A stretch of DNA of 44,118 nucleotides from Candidatus Wirthbacteria bacterium. GTDB taxonomy: Bacteria > Patescibacteriota > CG2-30-54-11. A program made the translations under genes and the position numbers. The notes under the pieces are model-generated. The model searched no databases and had not been told where the DNA came from. It saw only the letters and a list, made by a program, of their open reading frames with translations. Below, piece by piece: positions 7,564 to 22,257 of this stretch; position 1 is the first letter of the stretch, and each line of letters begins with the position of its first letter. The stretch lies in the NCBI GenBank assembly GCA_903889905.1, contig CAISZI010000009.1, forward strand, positions 1 to 44,118. The letters are read 5' to 3'.

Positions 7564-7578
7564 AAATTGTAATTAAGT

Positions 7579-8048: not shown

Positions 8049-8077
8049 TTGACAGGCCAAGAATCCTAAAATATACT
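8049..8077 (+). promoter_or_regulatory. Consensus promoter of ilvC
   Basis: TTGACA (8049-8054), a 17-bp spacer and TATACT (8072-8077), close to the sigma-70 consensus. The predicted start is about 8084, 30 nt before ATG 8114, which has GGAG in its leader. The -35 and -10 elements fall in the two arms of an inverted repeat (8052-8085). Confidence 0.85.
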
Positions 8078-8085
8078 TGGCCTGT
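8052..8085. repeat. Perfect 10-bp inverted repeat over the ilvC promoter (operator or terminator)
   Basis: ACAGGCCAAG (8052-8061) and CTTGGCCTGT (8076-8085) are perfect inverted arms with a 14-nt loop, followed by TATTTTT. One reading is a rho-independent terminator for the 93-aa gene. The other is an operator for a regulator, since the arms cover the -35 and -10 regions of the ilvC promoter. Both may be true. Confidence 0.7.
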
Positions 8086-8113
8086 TATTTTTGATTTATT
8101 GGAGTGAAGCGAT

Positions 8114-11791: not shown

Positions 11792-12676
11792 ATGGGTAGA
11801 TATTTGTTTATTAATAGTTTACCGATGACAGAGAATGTTCCTGATTTTGATCAACTGAATAAATCTGAACCTGATGACGATATGGAGTGGTTTGATTTGG
11901 AGGCTGAGGGGCAACAATTCCCAACGACGACCGACATTGCTTCAAAAGGTGTGCGGGATTTTGCTAAAGCATTAGAAAGGTTACCTCCGGCATTGCGATT
12001 GAAGTTATTTCAGGACGAGTTTTTGACAGACAGCATTTTGGGTTTGGATGCCGCATTGGGTATTGAAGAATCCAAGGATCCCAAATTCCCTCAATTTATG
12101 CTAAGTCTTTCGCAAGACGAAGCAAGCCAAATCCAGGCAGCGTTTAGAAGGACAATTTTTGTGGTAACTGATGTTGAAGAAATTATGGGTTATTTGCATT
12201 TCTATTTGATCAATCGTTTGGCCACTGAACGGATTATTTCGTTACATGGCGACGTATTTGCAAGCAGTCCTCAAAAAGGAACACGGCAGTGGAAACGATG
12301 GTTTAAAAGTATTCAGTTTGATTCTGTCAAAATGGGTTTATTGAGTGGTTTTCCCAAAGAATCGGTAAAGAAGTATGCTGATTGGGAGGACTTGGGTTAT
12401 AGGTATCGTCATTATTACCGCAAATTTGAAGTAATTAAGAATCATCCCGGTAGTGTTTCTGGGGCCGATATTGATGCTTTAGATATAACGGCGACAGATC
12501 GTGAATTCCTTCAAGACTATTTGCGGACTGGGGGAAAAATTGAAGGGCATAAATGTGCGATTTTCAGTCAAGAGGATAATCGATATATGAAGAGTCGGGC
12601 ACATTGGAAAACGAGGATGGAAAATCTTTTTTCTTCTCAGCTTGCTGGTATGGTGTCTCCAGTGCTTGACAACTGA
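11792..12676 (+). CDS. Hypothetical protein, 294 aa
   Basis: Family not recognised. The product is soluble, with an acidic start (NKSEPDDDMEWFDLEAEG). A helical middle contains ALERLPPALRLKLFQDEF and an aromatic-rich stretch (EEIMGYLHFYLINRL, WEDLGYRYRHYYRKFEVI). SGADIDALDITATDREFLQ follows. ATG 11825 (283 residues) is an equally possible start, and neither has a clear Shine-Dalgarno. The gene abuts the transposase remnant and its last codons contain the -35 of the ilvB leader promoter, so its 3' end is under double constraint. Confidence 0.6.
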   Translation: MGRYLFINSLPMTENVPDFDQLNKSEPDDDMEWFDLEAEGQQFPTTTDIASKGVRDFAKALERLPPALRLKLFQDEFLTDSILGLDAALGIEESKDPKFPQFMLSLSQDEASQIQAAFRRTIFVVTDVEEIMGYLHFYLINRLATERIISLHGDVFASSPQKGTRQWKRWFKSIQFDSVKMGLLSGFPKESVKKYADWEDLGYRYRHYYRKFEVIKNHPGSVSGADIDALDITATDREFLQDYLRTGGKIEGHKCAIFSQEDNRYMKSRAHWKTRMENLFSSQLAGMVSPVLDN

Positions 12677-12694
12677 TTTGTTCCCCGTTATTCT
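12666..12694 (+). promoter_or_regulatory. Promoter of the ilvB leader and BCAA operon
   Basis: TTGACA (12666-12671), a 17-bp spacer and TATTCT (12689-12694). The -35 lies inside the last codons of the upstream gene. The predicted start is 12700-12702, which falls on the ATG of the leader peptide, so no room is left for a Shine-Dalgarno. Confidence 0.8.
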
Positions 12695-12700
12695 TAAATC

Positions 12701-12760
12701 ATGAAAAAGCAATTGGCCCTCGTCCTTAGCCTCATTATTAACACCCCAACGGGAGTGTAA
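12701..12760 (+). CDS. BCAA operon leader peptide, 19 aa
   Basis: The ORF reads MKKQLALVLSLIINTPTGV and stops with TAA at 12758-12760. Eight of 19 residues are leucine, valine or isoleucine, with a cluster at codons 5-13 (L-A-L-V-L-S-L-I-I). Leader peptides of ilv operons are known to sense charged tRNA through such codons. Immediately downstream are alternative RNA hairpins and a rho-independent terminator ahead of ilvB, so this is an attenuation leader rather than a chance ORF. The first base of the ATG coincides with the predicted transcription start, so translation is probably leaderless. Confidence 0.85.
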   Translation: MKKQLALVLSLIINTPTGV

Positions 12761-12830
12761 TTTCGCTTTGGACCTCGGATAGCAAGCAAACATTACCTCC
12801 TGAACACCTCAGGGGGTTTTTTTATTTTTT
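12741..12830 (+). promoter_or_regulatory. Attenuator RNA: pause hairpin, antiterminator, terminator
   Basis: Three helices compete. Helix 1:2: ACAC and CCC (12741-12747) pair with GGG and GTGT (12751-12758, A12754 bulged). Helix 2:3 (antiterminator): GGGAGTGTAA (12751-12760) pairs with TTACCTCCT (12793-12801), nine pairs with U12756 bulged. Helix 3:4 (terminator): CCTCCTGA (12796-12803) pairs with TCAGGGGG (12809-12816). A ribosome stalled at the Leu/Val/Ile codons covers segment 1 and frees segment 2, favouring antitermination. A ribosome at the stop codon covers segment 2, so the terminator forms. GCTT (12765-12768) and AAGC (12784-12787) may form a small helix inside the 2:3 loop. Confidence 0.82.
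12796..12830 (+). terminator. Attenuator terminator upstream of ilvB
   Basis: An 8-bp stem (CCTCCTGA/TCAGGGGG, one G-U pair) with loop ACACC, followed by TTTTTTTATTTTTT. It ends 23 nt before ATG 12854 of ilvB. GGGGGA in that gap serves as the ribosome site. Confidence 0.88.
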
Positions 12831-12853
12831 ACCCACATTAGCCGGGGGACAGC

Positions 12854-14581
12854 ATGACTACCAAGCCAGCCAAGAAACCCAAGTCCAAAACCATCACTGG
12901 TGCAGAACTTCTATGCCAGTGTCTCGTTGACCACGGCGTTGAGCTCATGTTTGGCTACCAGGGCGGCGCGATCATGCCGGTTTATGATGCGTTCCCAAAA
13001 TATCCCAAACTGCGGCACGTGATGGTTCGTAACGAACAGGGGGCTGCCTTTGCCGCGGCGGGTTATGCTCGGGCGACTGGCAAGGTCGGCGTTTGTGTGG
13101 CGACATCCGGTCCCGGCGCAACCAACTTGCTGACTGGAATCGCCGACGCCCACATGGATTCGATTCCTGTGCTGGCGATCACCGGTCAGGTTGTCTCGAC
13201 GGTGATCGGTACCGACGCCTTCCAGGAAAGCGATGTGGTCGGACTGATGATTCCGCTGACCAAACAAAGTTATTTGCTGGATGACGTGCATGATATCCCG
13301 ATGGTGGTAAGCGAAGCGTTCCATTTGGCGAATTCTGGGCGACCAGGACCTGTGCACATTGATCTGCCCAAGGATGTGGCTTTTGCCACGGTAAAACTTG
13401 ACGAAGTGAATACTCAAATCCGCTATCCTTACGAAGGCTATCAGGGGATCAGCGTCAAAGACCTCAAAACCGTGCAGTCCATGGTCAAAGAAGCGCGCCA
13501 ACCGGTCGTCTTCGTGGGCCACGGGGTGATTCTGTCCAACGCGCATCGGGAAGTGCAGCAGTTTATCGAAAAATCCGACATGCCTTTTGCCAGCACCTTG
13601 CTTGGGATCAGTGCCTTGCCGTATGACCATCCATTGCACCTGGGCATGATGGGCATGCATGGCACGGTACAGGCCAACCGGGCGATTGAGCAGTCGGATC
13701 TGATCATTGCTTTTGGTATGCGCTTTGACGACCGCATCACTGGTTTGGTGTCGGCTTTTGCGCCCCATGCCAAGATCATTCACATTGAAATCGATCCATC
13801 GGAAATTGATAAAAACGTCAAAACCAATCTGGCGATCAATTGCGACATCAAAAAAGCGGCGGCCAAAATGACGCAGATTGTCGTTGGCAGAGACTATACG
13901 AGCTGGAAAAAGCTGGCTCGGGATAACGCCAAAGTCTGGGACAAAGCAGATCCGGTGCGCACGGGCAAAGGGTTAGGTTCGTCCGGCAAATTGCTCATGG
14001 CCTATGTCTTGGAACGGCTTTCGGATTTGACGCATGGCAACGACAATGTGGTGGCGGATGTGGGCCAAAACCAGATGTTTGCTGCCCGTTATTATAACTT
14101 TCAACGATATAACACCTGGTTTAACTCGGGCGGTGCCGGCACTATGGGTTTCGCGTTGCCGACAGCTCTGGGGGTGAAGATGGCACGACCCAAAGAACGC
14201 GTCTGGGTCACGGTGGGGGATGGCGGCTTTCAGATGAACATTCAGGAATTGGGTACGATTTTGGAAGAAAAGCTGGATATCAAAATTTTGCTTCTCAACA
14301 ACAGCTTCCTGGGCATGGTCAAACAATGGCAGGATCTATTTTTTGGTGGCCGCTTTGTGGCGACACCGATGGTTAATCCGGATTTTGTCGCCCTTTGTCG
14401 GGCTTATGGTATTGCGGGCGAAAAAGTGGCCACCAAAGCGGGTGTGGATGCAGCCATCAAGCGTGCCATGCAGCACAAAGGCGCTTACATCGTGGAAGTG
14501 GATACGGCCATGGAAGAAGTCGTCATGCCCATGATACCTTCAAATTCACCTTATAGTTCGATGAGGATTACCAATGAATAA
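12854..14581 (+). CDS. ilvB: Acetolactate synthase, catalytic large subunit
   Basis: ThDP- and FAD-dependent condensation of two pyruvates to acetolactate, or pyruvate with 2-oxobutyrate to acetohydroxybutyrate: the first shared BCAA step. The 575-residue protein shows GYQGGAIMPVYDA (34-46), catalytic glutamate E61 in RNEQGAAFAAAGYARATG, the FAD-region RFDDRITG and the ThDP motif GDGGFQMN...NNSFLGMVKQWQ. The C-terminal PMIPSNSPYSSM is truncated relative to a typical 'MV.PG' tail but the length is normal. It overlaps ilvN by 8 bp (ATGAATAA), indicating coupled translation of the two subunits. Expression is gated by the leader attenuator. Confidence 0.97.
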   Translation: MTTKPAKKPKSKTITGAELLCQCLVDHGVELMFGYQGGAIMPVYDAFPKYPKLRHVMVRNEQGAAFAAAGYARATGKVGVCVATSGPGATNLLTGIADAHMDSIPVLAITGQVVSTVIGTDAFQESDVVGLMIPLTKQSYLLDDVHDIPMVVSEAFHLANSGRPGPVHIDLPKDVAFATVKLDEVNTQIRYPYEGYQGISVKDLKTVQSMVKEARQPVVFVGHGVILSNAHREVQQFIEKSDMPFASTLLGISALPYDHPLHLGMMGMHGTVQANRAIEQSDLIIAFGMRFDDRITGLVSAFAPHAKIIHIEIDPSEIDKNVKTNLAINCDIKKAAAKMTQIVVGRDYTSWKKLARDNAKVWDKADPVRTGKGLGSSGKLLMAYVLERLSDLTHGNDNVVADVGQNQMFAARYYNFQRYNTWFNSGGAGTMGFALPTALGVKMARPKERVWVTVGDGGFQMNIQELGTILEEKLDIKILLLNNSFLGMVKQWQDLFFGGRFVATPMVNPDFVALCRAYGIAGEKVATKAGVDAAIKRAMQHKGAYIVEVDTAMEEVVMPMIPSNSPYSSMRITNE

Positions 14582-15104
14582 ACTGCACACCGTGCTGGCC
14601 TTTGCCTACAACGAGCCTGGCGTCCTCAACAAGCTTTTTTCTCTGATTCGCAAAAAACGTTACAACGTTGAAACCATCACTGCTGGACACACGCACGTGC
14701 CGAATTTAAGCCGCATGACGATCGCGTTTAGCCAGAAAGATGAAAGCAAGATTGAGCAAATCGTGAAGCAGATCCAGAACATCACCGAAGTCACCACCAC
14801 CGAGGATGTGACGAATCAGGAAGTGATCATCCGCGAACTGGTGTTGCTCAAAGTCAAGGCGACGACCATCAATCGTGCCCATATTGCGGCGACTGCTGAT
14901 GTGATGGGTGGCCGCGTGGTAAACGTGGCGCCGGATAATATGATTGTTGAATTTTCCGATTCCCCGGCCAAGATCGAGAATGCGATCACCGTCTTTGGTG
15001 ATATTGGTCTACTCGGCGTGGCGCGCACGGGTGCCACCGTCATCCACAAAGAAACCGAAGACATGGGCGTGGATAGTAAAGGGCGGAAAAAAGTCTCTTT
15101 TTAA
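14574..15104 (+). CDS. ilvN: Acetolactate synthase, regulatory small subunit
   Basis: Binds and activates IlvB and usually carries the valine feedback site. The 176-residue protein starts with an ACT domain: HTVLAFAYNEPGVLNKLFSL (4-23), then YNVETITAGHTHVPNLSRMTI. A C-terminal domain follows (REL.LLKVKA....IAATADVMGGRVVNVAPDNMIVEFS). GAGGA sits just upstream of the ATG, within ilvB. This is a long-form (IlvH-like) small subunit rather than the short IlvN/IlvM type. The normally conserved 'N..PGVL..I' effector loop is present as NEPGVLNKL, consistent with effector binding. Confidence 0.95.
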   Translation: MNKLHTVLAFAYNEPGVLNKLFSLIRKKRYNVETITAGHTHVPNLSRMTIAFSQKDESKIEQIVKQIQNITEVTTTEDVTNQEVIIRELVLLKVKATTINRAHIAATADVMGGRVVNVAPDNMIVEFSDSPAKIENAITVFGDIGLLGVARTGATVIHKETEDMGVDSKGRKKVSF

Positions 15105-15492: not shown

Positions 15493-16989
15493 ATGCCCCA
15501 GAATCGTTTAATCATCTTTGACACTACTTTACGCGATGGCGAACAGACGCCGCTCACTTCACTCAAAACCGTGGAAAAAGTTGAAATTGCCCGGCAGTTG
15601 GAAAAGCTTGGGGTGGACGTGATCGAGGCCGGATTCCCGATTTCTAGTCCGGGCGACTTTGAATCCGTACAGAAGATCGGGCGTGAGATCAAAAATTGCA
15701 TTATTTGTGGCCTCACGCGTGCCATCCGCAAAGATATCGACGTAGCCGCGGAAGCCCTGAAAACTGCCAAGTACCCACGGATTCATACCGGCATTGGCGC
15801 CAGCGACATTCACATCAAGCACAAATTCAAATCAACGCGCGAAGATATTCTGGCACGTGCCATTGAAGCCGTAAAATATGCCAAAAAGTTTGTCAGTGAC
15901 GTGGAGTTCTACGCCGAAGACGCGGGACGCGCAGATCCGGTTTATCTGGCTATCATGATCGAAGCGGTGATCAAAGCCGGTGCCACAACGGTCAATATTC
16001 CAGACACCACGGGTTACACCTTTCCCGAAGAATACGGCAGTTTGATCAAATTCTTGTTTGATCACGTCAGCAATATTGAAAAGGCGGTGGTTTCAACACA
16101 CTGCCACAATGATCTTGGTCTTGCCACGGCCAACACCTTGGCAGGCGTTTTGAATGGTGCGCGCCAGGTGGAAGTCACGATCAACGGCATTGGTGAGCGG
16201 GCCGGTAATACGGCGCTTGAGGAAATTGTCATGGCGCTCAAAACCCGCAAACAAAATAATCTGGAACTCAATCTCAAAACGCAGGAACTCAATCGCACCA
16301 GCCGCATGGTGGCAAGCTTGATGGGCGTTGTTGTCCAGCCTAACAAAGCCATTGTCGGGGCCAACGCTTTCGCGCATTCGAGTGGCATCCATCAGGACGG
16401 TGTGATCAAGAAACGCCTCACCTACGAAATTATCGACCCCAAAGACGTGGGTGTGGACAGTTCCAAGATCGTGCTAACGGCGCGGTCCGGTCGGGCGGCA
16501 CTGACGCACCGGTTCGAAAAACTGGGTTACAAATTCAGTCAGAAGAAAATTGATGAGCTATACGAACGGTTTTTGCTGATTGCCGACCGCAAAAAAGAAG
16601 TTTTTGACGATGATTTACGTGTACTTGTCGACGAAACTGCCCGTGAATCAACAGAACGCATCAAATTGGCGCTGACGGAGGTGGTCTGTGGCAATTCGTC
16701 CATTCCTTTTGCCATGGTGAAACTGATGGTGGATGGCGCGCCGTTTGTCGCGACGGCGACGGGGACCGGCCCGGTGGATGCGTCTTATCAGGCGATTGAT
16801 AAAATCGTCAAAAAAAAGGTGAAACTGGTGGAGTATCTGTTGCAATCCGTGACCGCAGGTATCGATGCCCAGGCCAAAGTAAGTGTGGCGATCGAGTACC
16901 GCGCCAAACGGTATTATGGTTATGGCGCGGACCCAGACATTGTGGTGGCGTCGACCAAGGCGTATCTGGACGCGGTGAATAAGCTGTGA
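15493..16989 (+). CDS. leuA: 2-isopropylmalate synthase
   Basis: Condenses acetyl-CoA with 2-oxoisovalerate, the first committed leucine step. The 498-residue protein has a DRE-TIM barrel ([12 protein letters not shown] at 9-20, [13 protein letters not shown], and [19 protein letters not shown]) and a C-terminal LeuA allosteric domain from about 390, where leucine feedback normally acts. It ends in TGA, showing TGA is a stop here. ATG 15493 lacks a good Shine-Dalgarno. The paralogous cimA lies three kilobases downstream. LeuA is assigned here because of GEQTP and the isopropylmalate-type [10 protein letters not shown] motif. Confidence 0.95.
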
Positions 16990-17000
16990 TGAGAAGAAAG

Positions 17001-17127
17001 CCCCCTGCGCCCCCTTTACAAGGGGGAAAGAGTAATTACTCTCATACGAAGTCTAAGGAGAGCAAGAACGATTTTTTTCTTTTGGCAAAGGCAAGATCAG
17101 ACCTCCTTGTAAAGGGGGCGCAGGGGG
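17001..17127. repeat. 127-bp inverted-repeat (MITE-like) element between leuA and avtA
   Basis: Bases 17001-17023 and 17105-17127 are perfect 23-bp inverted arms (CCCCCTGCGCCCCC at the outer end, then TTTACAAGG). The interior has a 14-bp palindrome, AGAGTAATTACTCT (17029-17042), and a T-rich run. There is no ORF. The arms share the C-run/spacer/C-run/TTTA layout with 9226-9270, so both belong to one repeat family. It may affect read-through from leuA to avtA. Confidence 0.8.
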
Positions 17128-17171
17128 ATTCGGATTAACCATAGGGATTTTAGAATTAATAGAAATTTCTT

Positions 17172-18428
17172 ATGTCCACTACCTTTCGTCTCTCCAACTT
17201 TGGCAACAAAATGACGCGGTCAACCGGGATTTCCATCCTTATGGACGATCTGGGCAAAGCCTTGTCGGGCAGTGACAAGGTTTACATGCTTGGCGGCGGC
17301 AATCCGGCGCACATTGCTGCGGTGGAAGCGATCTGGCGCAAACAAATGCACGTGATCATGGCGTCGGAAAATGGGTTTGAGAAAATGTTGGGCAATTACG
17401 ACACGCCGCAGGGGATGATGACCTTTATCGACACGATCGTGGATTTCTTTAACCGCAATTATGGTTGGGGCATCAAAGCGGATAACGTCGCCATCACCAA
17501 TGGCAGTCAGAGTGCCTGCTTTTTTCTGTTCAACCTGTTTGCCGGTACGTCACCCCAGGGTAAGCGCAAGATTTTGCTGCCGATCGCACCGGAATACATT
17601 GGCTACACCGACCAGGGCATTGAGGAAGACATCTTTGTTTCGCGGCGGCCGATCATTGAAGAGCTGCCGGATCATCAGTTCAAATATCACGTCGACTTTG
17701 ACAACCTGCACATTGGCGATGATATTGGGGCGATTTGTATTTCGCGGCCGACCAATCCCACGGGGAATGTTATCACCGATGAAGAATTGGATCGGTTAAG
17801 TGTTTTGGCGCGCGCCCAAGGCATACCGCTGATCGTGGACAACGCTTATGGCAATCCTTTTCCCCAGATGATCTTTAGCGACGCCACGCTCCAGTGGAAC
17901 GACCAAATCGTGCACAGCTTTAGTTTGTCCAAAATTGGTTTGCCGGGCACGCGTACGGGTATCGTCATTGCGCATCCCGAGACTGTCGCGGCGCTCGCGG
18001 CGGTGAATGCGGTGGTAAGCCTGGCCAATGGCAGTATCGGACAGGCGCTCACGCTGCCTTTGTTTCAGTCAGACGCGATCGTGCACATCAGCGCGACACT
18101 GATCAAGCCGTTTTATGCCAATAAATCCAAACAGGCGACAGCCTGGATCCGGCAATATTTTGATGGTCTGGTCGATTACCGCATGCACAAATGCGAAGGA
18201 TCTTTTTTCTTTTGGTTATGGTTTCCAGGGCTAAAAATCGATTCCATGGAGTTATACCAGCGACTTAAGGCTCGCAAAGTACTGGTCGTGCCAGGAAATT
18301 TCTTTTTTCCTGGTCTTGATGAGGAGTGGCAGCACAAGCACGAATGCCTGCGCATGAGCTATGCCCAAAACAGTGAAGATGTGCGGCAGGGGATTGAAAT
18401 TATGGCGGAGGTTTTGCAGCAATTATGA
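17172..18428 (+). CDS. avtA: Valine-pyruvate aminotransferase (AvtA type)
   Basis: A PLP-dependent fold-type I aminotransferase that interconverts valine plus pyruvate with 2-oxoisovalerate plus alanine. The 418-residue product matches E. coli AvtA closely along its length: YMLGGGNPAHI, NYDTPQG, ITNGSQSACFFLFNLFAG, APEYIGYTDQGIEEDIF and ISRPTNPTGNVITDEEL. The PLP lysine is in SFSLSKIGLPGTRTGI. In this operon it is the natural candidate for the last transamination step, since no ilvE is present. It overlaps cimA by 4 bp (ATGA). The start at 17172 has no clear Shine-Dalgarno. Confidence 0.93.
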   Translation: MSTTFRLSNFGNKMTRSTGISILMDDLGKALSGSDKVYMLGGGNPAHIAAVEAIWRKQMHVIMASENGFEKMLGNYDTPQGMMTFIDTIVDFFNRNYGWGIKADNVAITNGSQSACFFLFNLFAGTSPQGKRKILLPIAPEYIGYTDQGIEEDIFVSRRPIIEELPDHQFKYHVDFDNLHIGDDIGAICISRPTNPTGNVITDEELDRLSVLARAQGIPLIVDNAYGNPFPQMIFSDATLQWNDQIVHSFSLSKIGLPGTRTGIVIAHPETVAALAAVNAVVSLANGSIGQALTLPLFQSDAIVHISATLIKPFYANKSKQATAWIRQYFDGLVDYRMHKCEGSFFFWLWFPGLKIDSMELYQRLKARKVLVVPGNFFFPGLDEEWQHKHECLRMSYAQNSEDVRQGIEIMAEVLQQL

Positions 18429-19972
18429 CAGCCATTCAACTATACGACACTACTCTTCGCGACGGTTCCCAGCAGCAGGGGATTTCCTTTTCGGTCAAAG
18501 ACAAGTTGGAAATTACCAAGTTGCTGGACAATCTGGGTATCGACTTGATCGAAGGTGGCTGGCCCGGGTCTAACCCCAAAGACATGGAATTCTTTGCCAG
18601 GGCTGCCAAACTGAAACTGTCTCATGCACGGTTAGCGGCGTTCGGTTCGACCTGCCGCGTGGGTAAAGCTGCCAGCCAGGATGTCAATTTGCGGGCTTTA
18701 CTGGAATCTCAGGCTCCGGTTGTAACCATTTTTGGTAAAACCTCGACCTTGCACATTGAGAAAATTTTACGGGCGACCCAAAAAGAAGGATTAAGAATTA
18801 TCAAAGAATCCTTAAAGTTTTTGAAATCTTCTGGCCGTACTGTTTTTTTTGATGCGGAACATTTTTTTGACGGGTATCGGCTGGAGGCTAATTTTGCCTT
18901 GACATGTTTGCGTGAGGCAGAGGACGCAGGCGTTGATGCCATTATCCTTTGCGATACCAATGGCGGCACTATGCCGTGGGAAGTGGGGGAGATCGTCAGT
19001 CGAGTGACCAAAGTTGTTAAAATACCGCTGGGAATACATGCCCACAACGATGCTGGACTGGCGGCGGCGAATTCGCTGGCAGCTGTGCGCGCGGGTTGTC
19101 TGCAGGTGCAGGGAACCATGAACGGCTATGGCGAACGCACCGGCAATGCCAATCTGTGCAGCCTGATCCCGACGCTGAAGGTTAAGATGGGGCTTCAATT
19201 AGCTGCTAATCTGGCCAGTCTCGTAGCCACCTCGCATGCTATTGCCGCAATCGCCAACCAGCCACTGCCTGCGAAATCACCCTACGTCGGTACTCAGGCG
19301 TTTACGCACAAAGGCGGCATTCACGTCTCGGCCTTAAGTCGTGATAAAACCTCTTACGAACACATGGATCCCGCACTTGTGGGCAATGCGTCGAACGTTG
19401 TCATTTCGGATCTGGCTGGCAAAAGTAATATTGTTTACAAGCTCAAAGCTTTTGGCTTGCACGAACCAGTCGACGATGACAAGCTGGCAAAAGTGCTGCA
19501 GGAATTGAAGCAATGGGAAAACGAAGGGCTCAGTTACGAAGGTGCAGACGCGTCGTTTGAACTGTTTTTGCGCCGCCGTCTGTTTGGGCATAAAGCGCCA
19601 TTTCAACTGGTCAAGTTCATCTCGCTGGTGGAACAGGATCGGGGCAGTAACATCGAAGCGGTCGTCAAAATCCGTGTCGGCAAAGCAATCATGCACACAG
19701 CAGCGGCCGGCAATGGCCCGGTCAATGCACTGGATGGCGCTTTGCGCAAGGCTCTGGAACCGTTTTATCCGCAGTTAAAGCACGTGGAGTTAACCGATTA
19801 CAAGGTTCGTATCATTGATCCTGCCTCCGCGACGGAAGCCAAAACACGAGTGATGATTACGAGCTCTGATAGTATGAAGGAATGGGTCACCGTGGGCGCC
19901 AGTACCAACATCATCGAAGCCAGTTGGCTCGCCTTGAGTGATGCGGTAGAGTATGCGCTGGTGAAAAAGTGA
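18425..19972 (+). CDS. cimA: (R)-citramalate synthase
   Basis: Condenses acetyl-CoA and pyruvate to citramalate, opening the threonine-independent route to 2-oxobutyrate and isoleucine. The 515-residue protein has the CimA-type start YDTTLRDGSQQQGISFSVKDK, then IEGGWPGSNPKDMEFF, which distinguishes it from LeuA. IHAHNDAGLAAANSLAAVRAG and NGYGERTGNANLCSLIP complete the barrel, and a LeuA-type allosteric domain lies at the C-terminus. The 4-bp overlap with avtA implies coupling. No ilvA is present, consistent with this route. Isoleucine feedback is expected from the family but not shown. Confidence 0.95.
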   Translation: MTAIQLYDTTLRDGSQQQGISFSVKDKLEITKLLDNLGIDLIEGGWPGSNPKDMEFFARAAKLKLSHARLAAFGSTCRVGKAASQDVNLRALLESQAPVVTIFGKTSTLHIEKILRATQKEGLRIIKESLKFLKSSGRTVFFDAEHFFDGYRLEANFALTCLREAEDAGVDAIILCDTNGGTMPWEVGEIVSRVTKVVKIPLGIHAHNDAGLAAANSLAAVRAGCLQVQGTMNGYGERTGNANLCSLIPTLKVKMGLQLAANLASLVATSHAIAAIANQPLPAKSPYVGTQAFTHKGGIHVSALSRDKTSYEHMDPALVGNASNVVISDLAGKSNIVYKLKAFGLHEPVDDDKLAKVLQELKQWENEGLSYEGADASFELFLRRRLFGHKAPFQLVKFISLVEQDRGSNIEAVVKIRVGKAIMHTAAAGNGPVNALDGALRKALEPFYPQLKHVELTDYKVRIIDPASATEAKTRVMITSSDSMKEWVTVGASTNIIEASWLALSDAVEYALVKK

Positions 19973-20109: not shown

Positions 20110-21510
20110 ATGCCCAAAACGCTGTTTGATAAAGTCTGGGAAGCTCATGTCGTGGAAGCCATGCCAGATGGCAGTTACCTGCTCTATATCGACCGGCACC
20201 TGGTACACGAAGTAACCAGTCCACAAGCCTTTGAAGGTTTGCGTCGCAGCGGTCGCAAGTTGCGCGCCCCCAAGCGGACGCTTGCCGTCCTCGATCACAA
20301 CATCCCAACCGTAGATCGCCGGAACATTACCAATCCGATTGCCAAAAAGCAGGTGACCGAACTCGAAAGTAATGTGCGTGAATTTGGTATCGAGTTTTAT
20401 GGTCTGGACAGCGACCGGCAGGGGATCGTGCACATTATTGGACCGGAACTTGGATTTACCCTACCAGGTGTGACCTTGGTCTGCGGCGACAGCCACACCT
20501 CGACGCATGGGGCGTTTGGAGCGCTAGCCTTTGGCATTGGGACATCGGAAGTGGAGCATGTGTTGGCGACGCAATGCCTGATGCAATCGAGCAAACCACT
20601 CAACTTCCGGGTTGAGCTCCAGGGTAGGTTGCCGCGCGGTGTGACTTCCAAGGATGTGATTTTGCGTATTATTCGTGAAATCGGTACGGCGGGCGGCACC
20701 GGGAGCGTGTTTGAATTCTGCGGTGAAGCGATTGCAGCCATGAGCATGGAAGAACGTATGTCACTGTGCAATATGAGCATTGAAGCTGGCGCGCGCGCGG
20801 GCATGATTGCGCCGGATCCGACGACGTTTGACTACATCCAGGCGCAAAATCGTCCGTTTGCGCCCAAAGGTAAGGTTTTGACGGAGGCTTTGAACTATTG
20901 GAAAACCCTGCAAACCGATGCAGGCGCACATTTTGACAAAGAACTGGTCCTGAACGTCTCCGCTCTGGCGCCGCAAGTTACCTGGGGCACCAATCCGGCC
21001 ATGGGCACAGACGTCTCTGGTTCGATTCCGGCATTGGACGGCTACAAACACTCATCCGCTGCCAATGTCGAACGCGCGTTGCAATATATGGGTTTGAAGG
21101 CCGGGCAAAAAATGACTGAGATCCCGATTGATCTGGTCTTTATTGGTTCCTGCACCAATGGCCGCATCGAAGATCTGCGCGCAGCCGCCGCATTCTTGCA
21201 AGGCAAGAAAGTCAAAGTCCAAACTTTGGTCGTCCCCGGCTCCATGCAGGTCAAAGCACAGGCAGAACGTGAAGGTCTGGATCATGTATTCAAACAAGCC
21301 GGCGCCAAGTGGCGTGAACCTGGCTGTAGCATGTGCCTGGGAATGAATCCCGACATTGCCGCACCAGGTCAGCACGTGGCTTCAACCAGTAATCGTAACT
21401 TCGAAGGCCGCCAGGGCAAAGGTGCCCGCACGCATTTGATGAGTCCGATTATGGCGGCAGCGGCGGGAGTGGCAGGACATGTCGTGGATGTGAGAGAAAA
21501 GTTGTACTGA
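20110..21510 (+). CDS. leuC: 3-isopropylmalate/(R)-citramalate dehydratase, large subunit
   Basis: With LeuD it isomerises 2- to 3-isopropylmalate. In organisms using CimA it also handles citramalate/methylmalate. The 466-residue protein is the same length as E. coli LeuC and closely similar ([52 protein letters not shown]). The 4Fe-4S cysteines are C348 ([12 protein letters not shown]), C406 and C409 (GCSMCLGMN). GAGGAG precedes the ATG. This is the bacterial-type LeuC, not the archaeal HacA-like form. The adjacent leuD completes the enzyme. Confidence 0.97.
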
Positions 21511-21531
21511 CGGAAAAGCGCACAGATTGAA

Positions 21532-21562
21532 AGATTGCCACGTCGCAGCTCCTCGCAATGAC
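21532..21562. repeat. Single arm of the GATTGCCACGTCGC-type repeat between leuC and leuD
   Basis: AGATTGCCACGTCGC and then CTCCTCGCAATGAC, matching the right arm at 20042-20073 with a few substitutions. It lies 21 nt after the leuC stop and is followed by the leuD ribosome site (AAGGAG). Confidence 0.75.
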
Positions 21563-21588
21563 AGATTAATCAATTAAGGAGTTTAAAA

Positions 21589-22257
21589 ATGGAAAGCTTT
21601 AGTATTTATACCGGCCGCACCGCCTTACTCAACCGTGAAAACGTCGACACCGACGCCATTATCCCCAAGCAGTTTTTGGCCCGGGTACAGAAAAGTGGCT
21701 ATGGACCATTTTTGTTTTTTGACTGGAAAAACGCACCGGGAACGGTTTGTGAGATTGATGATGAAGCGGGGGATTTTGTCTTCCGCAAGCAGGTGCTAAA
21801 CCCCGACTTTGAGCTCAATCACGACACATTCGCTGGGGCCACGATTCTGGTTACCAAAAACAACTTCGGTTGCGGATCATCGCGTGAGCATGCACCCTGG
21901 GCACTGCTGGGGGCAGGTTTTCGCGTGGTGATTGCACCCCGCAAAGACGACGTGCCGGCATTTGCCGATATCTTTCGCAACAATTCCATTCAGAATGGAT
22001 TGATGTTGGTGGAACTCGCGTCAGCTGAGGTTAATGCAATATTTGACCGGGTGAATGCCAATCCTGGACTCGAGATTACTGTTGATTTGCCCAAGCAAAC
22101 TGTTTCGCTTGTCGGCGGTCCGACCTTTCGCTTTCAGATCAATTCTGGCGCCAAACAACGGCTGCTCACTGGAAGGGATGAGATCGGGGATACGCTGGTG
22201 ATGGCGGAGAAGATAGCGACCTATGAGTCAAAAGTGCCGGCGTGGTGTTCGTTGTAG
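21589..22257 (+). CDS. leuD: 3-isopropylmalate dehydratase, small subunit
   Basis: Swivelling-domain partner of LeuC. The 222-residue protein has NVDTDAIIPKQFL near the start and the active-site loop NNFGCGSSREHAPWALLGAGFRVVIAP, then FADIFRNNSIQNGLM, all typical of bacterial LeuD. E. coli LeuD is about 201 residues; the extra length is at the C-terminus (AEKIATYESKVPAWCSL). AAGGAG lies 7 nt before the ATG. It is the last gene of the BCAA cluster and converges on hisS with a 15-nt gap. leuB does not follow. Confidence 0.96.
   Translation: MESFSIYTGRTALLNRENVDTDAIIPKQFLARVQKSGYGPFLFFDWKNAPGTVCEIDDEAGDFVFRKQVLNPDFELNHDTFAGATILVTKNNFGCGSSREHAPWALLGAGFRVVIAPRKDDVPAFADIFRNNSIQNGLMLVELASAEVNAIFDRVNANPGLEITVDLPKQTVSLVGGPTFRFQINSGAKQRLLTGRDEIGDTLVMAEKIATYESKVPAWCSL

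Follow-up and report, generated by a model that had tools for sequence, protein, structure and literature searches.

The attenuators of E. coli ilvB, leu, and trp follow a four-segment logic comprising a pause helix, an antiterminator, and a terminator, with the control codons lying just before segment 1. For ilvB, leader-peptide attenuation by branched-chain amino acid (BCAA) codons has been supported or proposed in Corynebacterium (PMC10272879, PMC11857589) and Mycobacterium (PMC13236596). It has also been proposed in other Actinobacteria, although codon changes in S. coelicolor were without effect (PMC1262725), and leader-ORF attenuation has been argued to be common for ilvB (PMC10272879). 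An attenuator leader that is itself leaderless is known from Sinorhizobium, namely trpL (PMC7298713).

Here, we analyzed a 44,118-nucleotide (nt) stretch of a Candidatus Wirthbacteria genome (phylum Patescibacteriota), referred to below as the window, in which a putative leader lies directly 5' of ilvB, the gene that opens an ilvBN-leuA-cimA-leuCD run. This leader is very probably a ribosome-mediated transcription attenuator of the trp/ilv type, i.e., a known kind of system, to which our analysis adds a predicted leaderless start, a second candidate attenuator elsewhere in this genome, and similar leaders in several families of the phylum.

The window leader shares its four-segment logic with the ilv, leu, and trp leaders of E. 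coli; those leaders are translated from Shine-Dalgarno (SD) sites, whereas the AUG of the window leader is predicted at or near the 5' end of the RNA. The C. glutamicum ilvBNC leader and the ilvB-II motif resemble the window leader in having an L/I/V-rich ORF, there of ~15-17 codons, with ilvB next to it (PMC11857589, PMC10272879), and ilvBNC likewise has three alternative hairpins (anti-antiterminator, antiterminator, and terminator), initiation being framed as leaderless (PMC11857589). In contrast, the peptide, the hairpin sequences, and the phylum differ, and the window leader has no Rfam match at gathering score. In M. tuberculosis ilvB1NC, a stalled ribosome on a BCAA-rich ORF also sets the choice between antiterminator and terminator, and its terminated RNA of ~120 nt compares with ~125 nt predicted for the window leader (PMC13236596); that system belongs to another phylum, has LVVI as control codons, and is experimentally supported, whereas the window leader is a prediction. 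Finally, S. meliloti trpL, like the window leader as predicted here, has its ORF at the very 5' end of the RNA, but it responds through Trp rather than BCAA codons and belongs to the Alphaproteobacteria (PMC7298713).

Leader ORF, promoter, and helices upstream of ilvB

The predicted features of the locus are as follows; ilvB, ilvN, leuA, and cimA exceeded the respective NCBIfam cut-offs.

12666-12694, plus strand: sigma-70-type promoter (-35 TTGACA at 12666-12671, 17-nt spacer, -10 TATTCT at 12689-12694)
12701-12760, plus strand: putatively leaderless leader ORF, MKKQLALVLSLIINTPTGV, ATG...TAA, 19 codons, control codons 5-13 (Leu, Val, Ile)
12741-12747/12751-12758, plus strand: pause (1:2) helix, 7 bp, bulged A12754, dG -5.3, weak
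12750-12761/12792-12802, plus strand: antiterminator (2:3) helix, 11 bp, bulged U12756, dG -8.7, overlapping the leader stop codon
12795-12803/12809-12817, plus strand: intrinsic terminator (3:4), 9 bp, dG -13.3, followed by TTTTTTATTTTTT, with the T-tract at 12818-12830
12854-14581, plus strand: ilvB, acetolactate synthase large subunit (TIGR00118), putative SD GGGGGA at 12844-12849
14574-15104, plus strand: ilvN, acetolactate synthase small subunit (TIGR00119)
15493-16989, plus strand: leuA, 2-isopropylmalate synthase (TIGR00973)
18425-19972, plus strand: cimA, citramalate synthase (TIGR00977)
20110-22257, plus strand: leuC and leuD, named by eye from sequence, a same-strand continuation of the run

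The leader ORF carries eight L/I/V codons (Leu5, 7, 9, and 11; Val8 and 19; Ile12 and 13), seven of them in codons 5-13, and at least seven L/I/V codons in nine occurred in only 0.015% of dinucleotide shuffles (100-nt region; ORFs of 8-45 codons). The promoter upstream of it, a 10/12 match that the sequence-only reading had missed, predicts a transcript start at ~12701, at or beside the leader ATG. Since the -10 element ends only 6 nt 5' of this ATG, the leader ORF would be leaderless and there is no space for an SD site; consistently, no SD motif such as an E. coli-type leader would have was found before the leader ORF.

The intrinsic terminator sits between the leader ORF and ilvB, the first structural gene. 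Complementarity in the antiterminator exceeded that of shuffled sequences (p = 0.022). With a ribosome at Ile13, the extent to which the 5' arm of the terminator pairs with upstream RNA was matched in only 0.75% of spacer shuffles (p = 0.0075). The fold of 12701-12830 as a whole gave z = -1.95, so that folding energy by itself is only mildly unusual, and in untranslated RNA the pause helix had a probability of only 0.37-0.42. The sequence-only reading had described a 19-codon ORF with eight Leu/Val/Ile codons, a pause helix, an antiterminator, and a terminator with T-run as parts of a ribosome-mediated BCAA attenuator. We recovered all of these parts, the antiterminator being slightly longer than it had given, and the attenuator reading as a whole is now supported by sequence, masked folding, and comparative evidence.

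An alternative would be that the hairpin terminates the upstream gene (11792-12676), that the short ORF arose by chance, and that ilvB has its own promoter further downstream. The upstream gene, which gave no NCBIfam match, is indeed on the same strand and ends 119 nt 5' of the terminator. We nevertheless regard this alternative as very unlikely, given the low shuffle rate of the ORF, the 10/12 promoter at its start, and the complementarity of its end to the terminator arm. Moreover, we found no promoter-like site on the plus strand between the terminator and ilvB. A leader ORF followed by a terminator is also seen in front of ilvB and DAHP synthase in many other genomes of the phylum, which argues against a chance ORF.

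Another explanation would be direct recognition of a metabolite or uncharged tRNA by a riboswitch or T-box, the ORF being incidental; T-boxes control BCAA genes in some other bacteria. Some bacterial ilvB leaders also contain ppGpp riboswitches (PMC10272879). However, the window leader stayed below the Rfam gathering thresholds for T-box, ppGpp riboswitch, ilvB motifs, and the RF04312 trpB motif, the last being the best match (21.4 bits versus 59 required). An aptamer would also have no space, as the ORF takes up the leader from nucleotide 1 onward, and peptide and pathway correspond for the BCAA leaders as well as for the aromatic ones (see below). Direct ligand binding is thus most improbable, and we retain attenuation by a translating ribosome as the preferred reading.

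Between or after the ilvB-to-cimA genes lie leuC and leuD as well as cupin-like and aminotransferase-like genes, likewise named by eye. For ilvD and ilvC, which lie upstream in the window, no convincing BCAA leader was found; hydrophobic ORFs before a terminator at 7576 were rejected as an ilvD/ilvC leader, as they lie within a region fronting another small gene. Before ilvC, an inverted repeat at 8049-8090 (GACAGGCCAAG...CTTGGCCTGTT) overlaps a TTGACA-17-TATACT promoter-like site and may be an operator or a terminator. A long inverted repeat (CCCCCTGCGCCCCCTTTACAAGG / CCTTGTAAAGGGGGCGCAGGGGG) at ~16998-17128, in the interval from leuA to the aminotransferase gene, looks like a dispersed repeat.

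Ribosome position and the choice between helices

We folded, codon by codon, the RNA that a ribosome on the leader ORF would leave exposed, with RNA made up to 12802 and the leading edge of the ribosome set at 10, 12, or 15 nt beyond the first A-site nucleotide. At +12, the probability of the antiterminator was 0.02-0.22 with the A-site on codons 1-3, 0.89 at codon 4, 0.97-0.98 at codons 5-13, 0.39 at codon 15, and 0.00 from codon 16 to the stop, versus 0.10 without a ribosome. Setting the edge at +10 or +15 moved the productive codon range by about one codon, and values of 0.97-0.98 over the BCAA run were obtained with these settings too. The high probability across codons 5-13 indicates that each BCAA codon of the run, and thereby all three amino acids, can trigger the antiterminator. 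Val19 comes too late to act because a ribosome there covers the antiterminator arm.

This folding, with and without ribosome masking, had been suggested as a check in the sequence-only reading. Its outcome agrees with the claim made there that a ribosome at the leader stop codon frees the terminator, and that one stalled on the Leu/Val/Ile cluster favors the antiterminator instead. The helices had also been called mutually exclusive. Antiterminator and terminator do share the 12795-12802 region, and the position of the ribosome decides between them in masked folding. In complete RNA, the terminator was favored at equilibrium in all states (P 0.72-0.98); the switch must thus be kinetic, as in classical attenuators.

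These results suggest the following mechanism, a well-supported interpretation built on sequence, masked folding, and comparative evidence. RNA polymerase would start at or next to 12701, and a ribosome would begin on the 5'-terminal AUG of the leaderless ORF. Were charged Leu-, Val-, or Ile-tRNA scarce, the ribosome would stall on codons 5-13, leaving 12750-12761 free to pair with 12792-12802 before the terminator is complete, and ilvB and the genes behind it would be transcribed. With plentiful amino acids, a ribosome at the stop codon would cover 12750-12761, so that the terminator at 12795-12817 forms and transcription ends near 12820-12830. In the case of no translation, the 5' RNA would fold on itself and the terminator would be expected to form as well. 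Across 18 leaders collected by hand, however, the terminator arm did not pair with upstream RNA significantly more often when a ribosome was stalled than when none was present (p = 0.14), indicating that a terminating no-translation state is not general. From the computed parts, geometry, masked-folding behavior, and recurrence in relatives, we infer the start site, translation, stalling, termination, and regulatory response, as well as the function of the leader in the cell.

ilvB leaders in other genomes of the phylum

The phylum comprises hundreds of genera, whose near-complete genomes are mostly 0.5-1.3 Mb in size, and the class of the window is represented by three genomes (G000, the window genome, with G001 and G002). 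The window carries bacterial cell-wall genes, which, like the make-up of the phylum, fits Patescibacteriota. The window genome measures 1.99 Mb. In addition, ribosomal protein uL30 (PF00327) is present in G000 (C5:55747-55899) and G002 (C38:23609-23761), and absent in 18/18 sampled members of the phylum outside the family. The retention of uL30 together with the genome size suggests that this class is atypical, and it may branch early in the phylum.

No relative could be aligned to the window leader: ilvB is missing from G001 (68% complete) and runs off the contig end in G002, and the stretch in front of ilvB is retained in neither class relative. A different class of the phylum, to which G049 and G459 belong, yielded L/I/V leaders with terminators before ilvB or a short ilvB operon in 13 genomes (G049, G397, G459, G742, G519, G680, G601, G468, G449, G483, G695, G723, and G714); a 14th such leader, G723b, is a second one in G723 and lies before another gene. 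All 14 leaders showed the leaderless geometry, with the ATG 5-11 nt after the best -10 element and no convincing SD, and a similar geometry was found in all 18 leaders collected by hand. By comparison, no BCAA leader with terminator was found before ilvB in G057, G099, G063, G077, G297, G334, G304, G542, G571, or G644.

In the ilvB-type leaders, the antiterminator arms lie -24 to +14 nt from the leader stop codon, except in G723b, in which the match was not significant. Over 15 leaders, the antiterminator shuffle scores combined to Z = 8.05 (7.8 without the window), a value that overstates independence, as some of these leader sequences are related. Between G723 and G695, six of ten antiterminator pairs were changed on both sides with pairing kept throughout, and the terminator had changed along with them. 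These changes were counted on hand-aligned segments, MAFFT alignments having placed segment 3 wrongly in some rows.

These comparisons also bear on whether the leader peptide functions as a small protein in its own right, such as a hydrophobic peptide of the membrane, or has an effect in trans, beyond serving as a ribosome sensor. Its sequence is hydrophobic, and the Sinorhizobium leader peptide peTrpL has a trans function (PMC7298713). However, what is conserved between genera is the codon cluster and its spacing from the helices, not the peptide sequence, which argues against a working small protein. Such a role would also leave the match between peptide and pathway unexplained, and it is compatible with attenuation rather than exclusive of it. 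We thus give a separate peptide function very little credence and keep the ribosome-mediated attenuator as the preferred explanation.

Outside the phylum, candidate BCAA leader ORFs with terminators were present before ilvB at loci L041, L044, L085, L052, L057, L072, L056, L065, and L070, which are named ilvB relatives from Flavobacteriaceae, Bacteroidales, Chloroflexota, and a Francisellaceae relative. Attenuators of this kind had been described in the sequence-only reading as known from Proteobacteria and Actinobacteria; they are known there, but their range appears wider, with candidates in Bacteroidota, Chloroflexota, and Francisellaceae records. Joint transfer of leader and ilvB was considered and rejected: the nearest ilvB relatives with a name are Desulfobacterota-like and lack a comparable leader, apart from one weak, TTG-started match (L023).

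Aromatic leaders before DAHP synthase

Each of the three genomes in the class of the window has a putatively leaderless Tyr/Phe leader with a terminator before DAHP synthase. The one in the window genome, whose promoter has the same geometry, is the second attenuator candidate of that genome:

G000:C5 (L220), just upstream of 96715, minus strand: aromatic leader MQNSSHNFYFYFYFTNPGGARG with terminator; counterparts are L208 (G001) and L197 (G002)

The corresponding leader peptides are MMNTHNPAQTYFGFYFYWNLTGK in G001 and MNTTTRWTCSSYFYFTLMVPMS in G002, and the antiterminator shuffle p values were 0.006 (G000), 0.065 (G001), and 0.015 (G002). A genome-wide search of G000 for the leaderless-promoter pattern showed no enrichment (23 versus 20 in the reversed-pattern control), yet this pattern search pointed to the aromatic leaders of G001 and G002. 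A search for His runs in the three class members yielded no credible histidine leader in the loci read, which were a part of all hits.

Across the phylum, DAHP synthase was detected at the threshold used in 29/380 genomes. Outside the window's class, 10/23 scorable DAHP-synthase loci had an ORF with at least six F/Y/W codons in nine, versus 0.6% of shuffles, and the ten antiterminator tests at these loci combined to Z = 6.1. The ten loci (L271, L273, L274, L275, L276, L280, L282, L287, L290, and L292) belong to several other families of the phylum, L276, L280, and L282 being from one family; by eye, L280, L282, and L287 look leaderless.

In the usual description, Patescibacteria rely on other cells and have little amino-acid synthesis or regulation. 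Pathway-matched leaders in many families (L/I/V at ilvB, F/Y/W at DAHP synthase) suggest that some of them sense their own aminoacyl-tRNA supply, and such leaders may mark lineages that truly depend on making these amino acids. Our searches for attenuators or leader peptides in the candidate phyla radiation, Saccharibacteria, or Patescibacteria, which covered open-licence PMC literature and are thus weak evidence of absence, returned no relevant paper; the textbook mechanism would thereby be extended to a phylum for which we found no report of it. More tentatively, and as a reading less likely than not, we raise the idea that leaderless, ribosome-mediated attenuation is a main phylum-wide route by which Patescibacteriota control amino-acid synthesis, acting at ilvB for BCAA and at DAHP synthase for aromatics, with 5'-terminal AUGs replacing SD sites, and that it is either older than the major classes or was acquired repeatedly. 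The leaders are easy annotation marks in genomes of unculturable bacteria, and the leaderless starts would offer a simple system to test transcription-translation coupling from the first nucleotide.

Two further observations were made at individual loci of the phylum. Upstream of ilvB in G010 (L003, G010:C56) there is a TCCCC-TGCGA-CGGGGA hairpin with a T-run. An L/I/V ORF is absent there, and the leader may be of a different kind. G723 carries a second L/I/V leader, MQLFNRIKDAILVLSLRRLCFNEVEARRR, with a terminator (L175, G723:C127; plus strand of the locus, ORF start at 758), which is divergent from the ridA-ilvB leader and lies before an uncharacterised gene.
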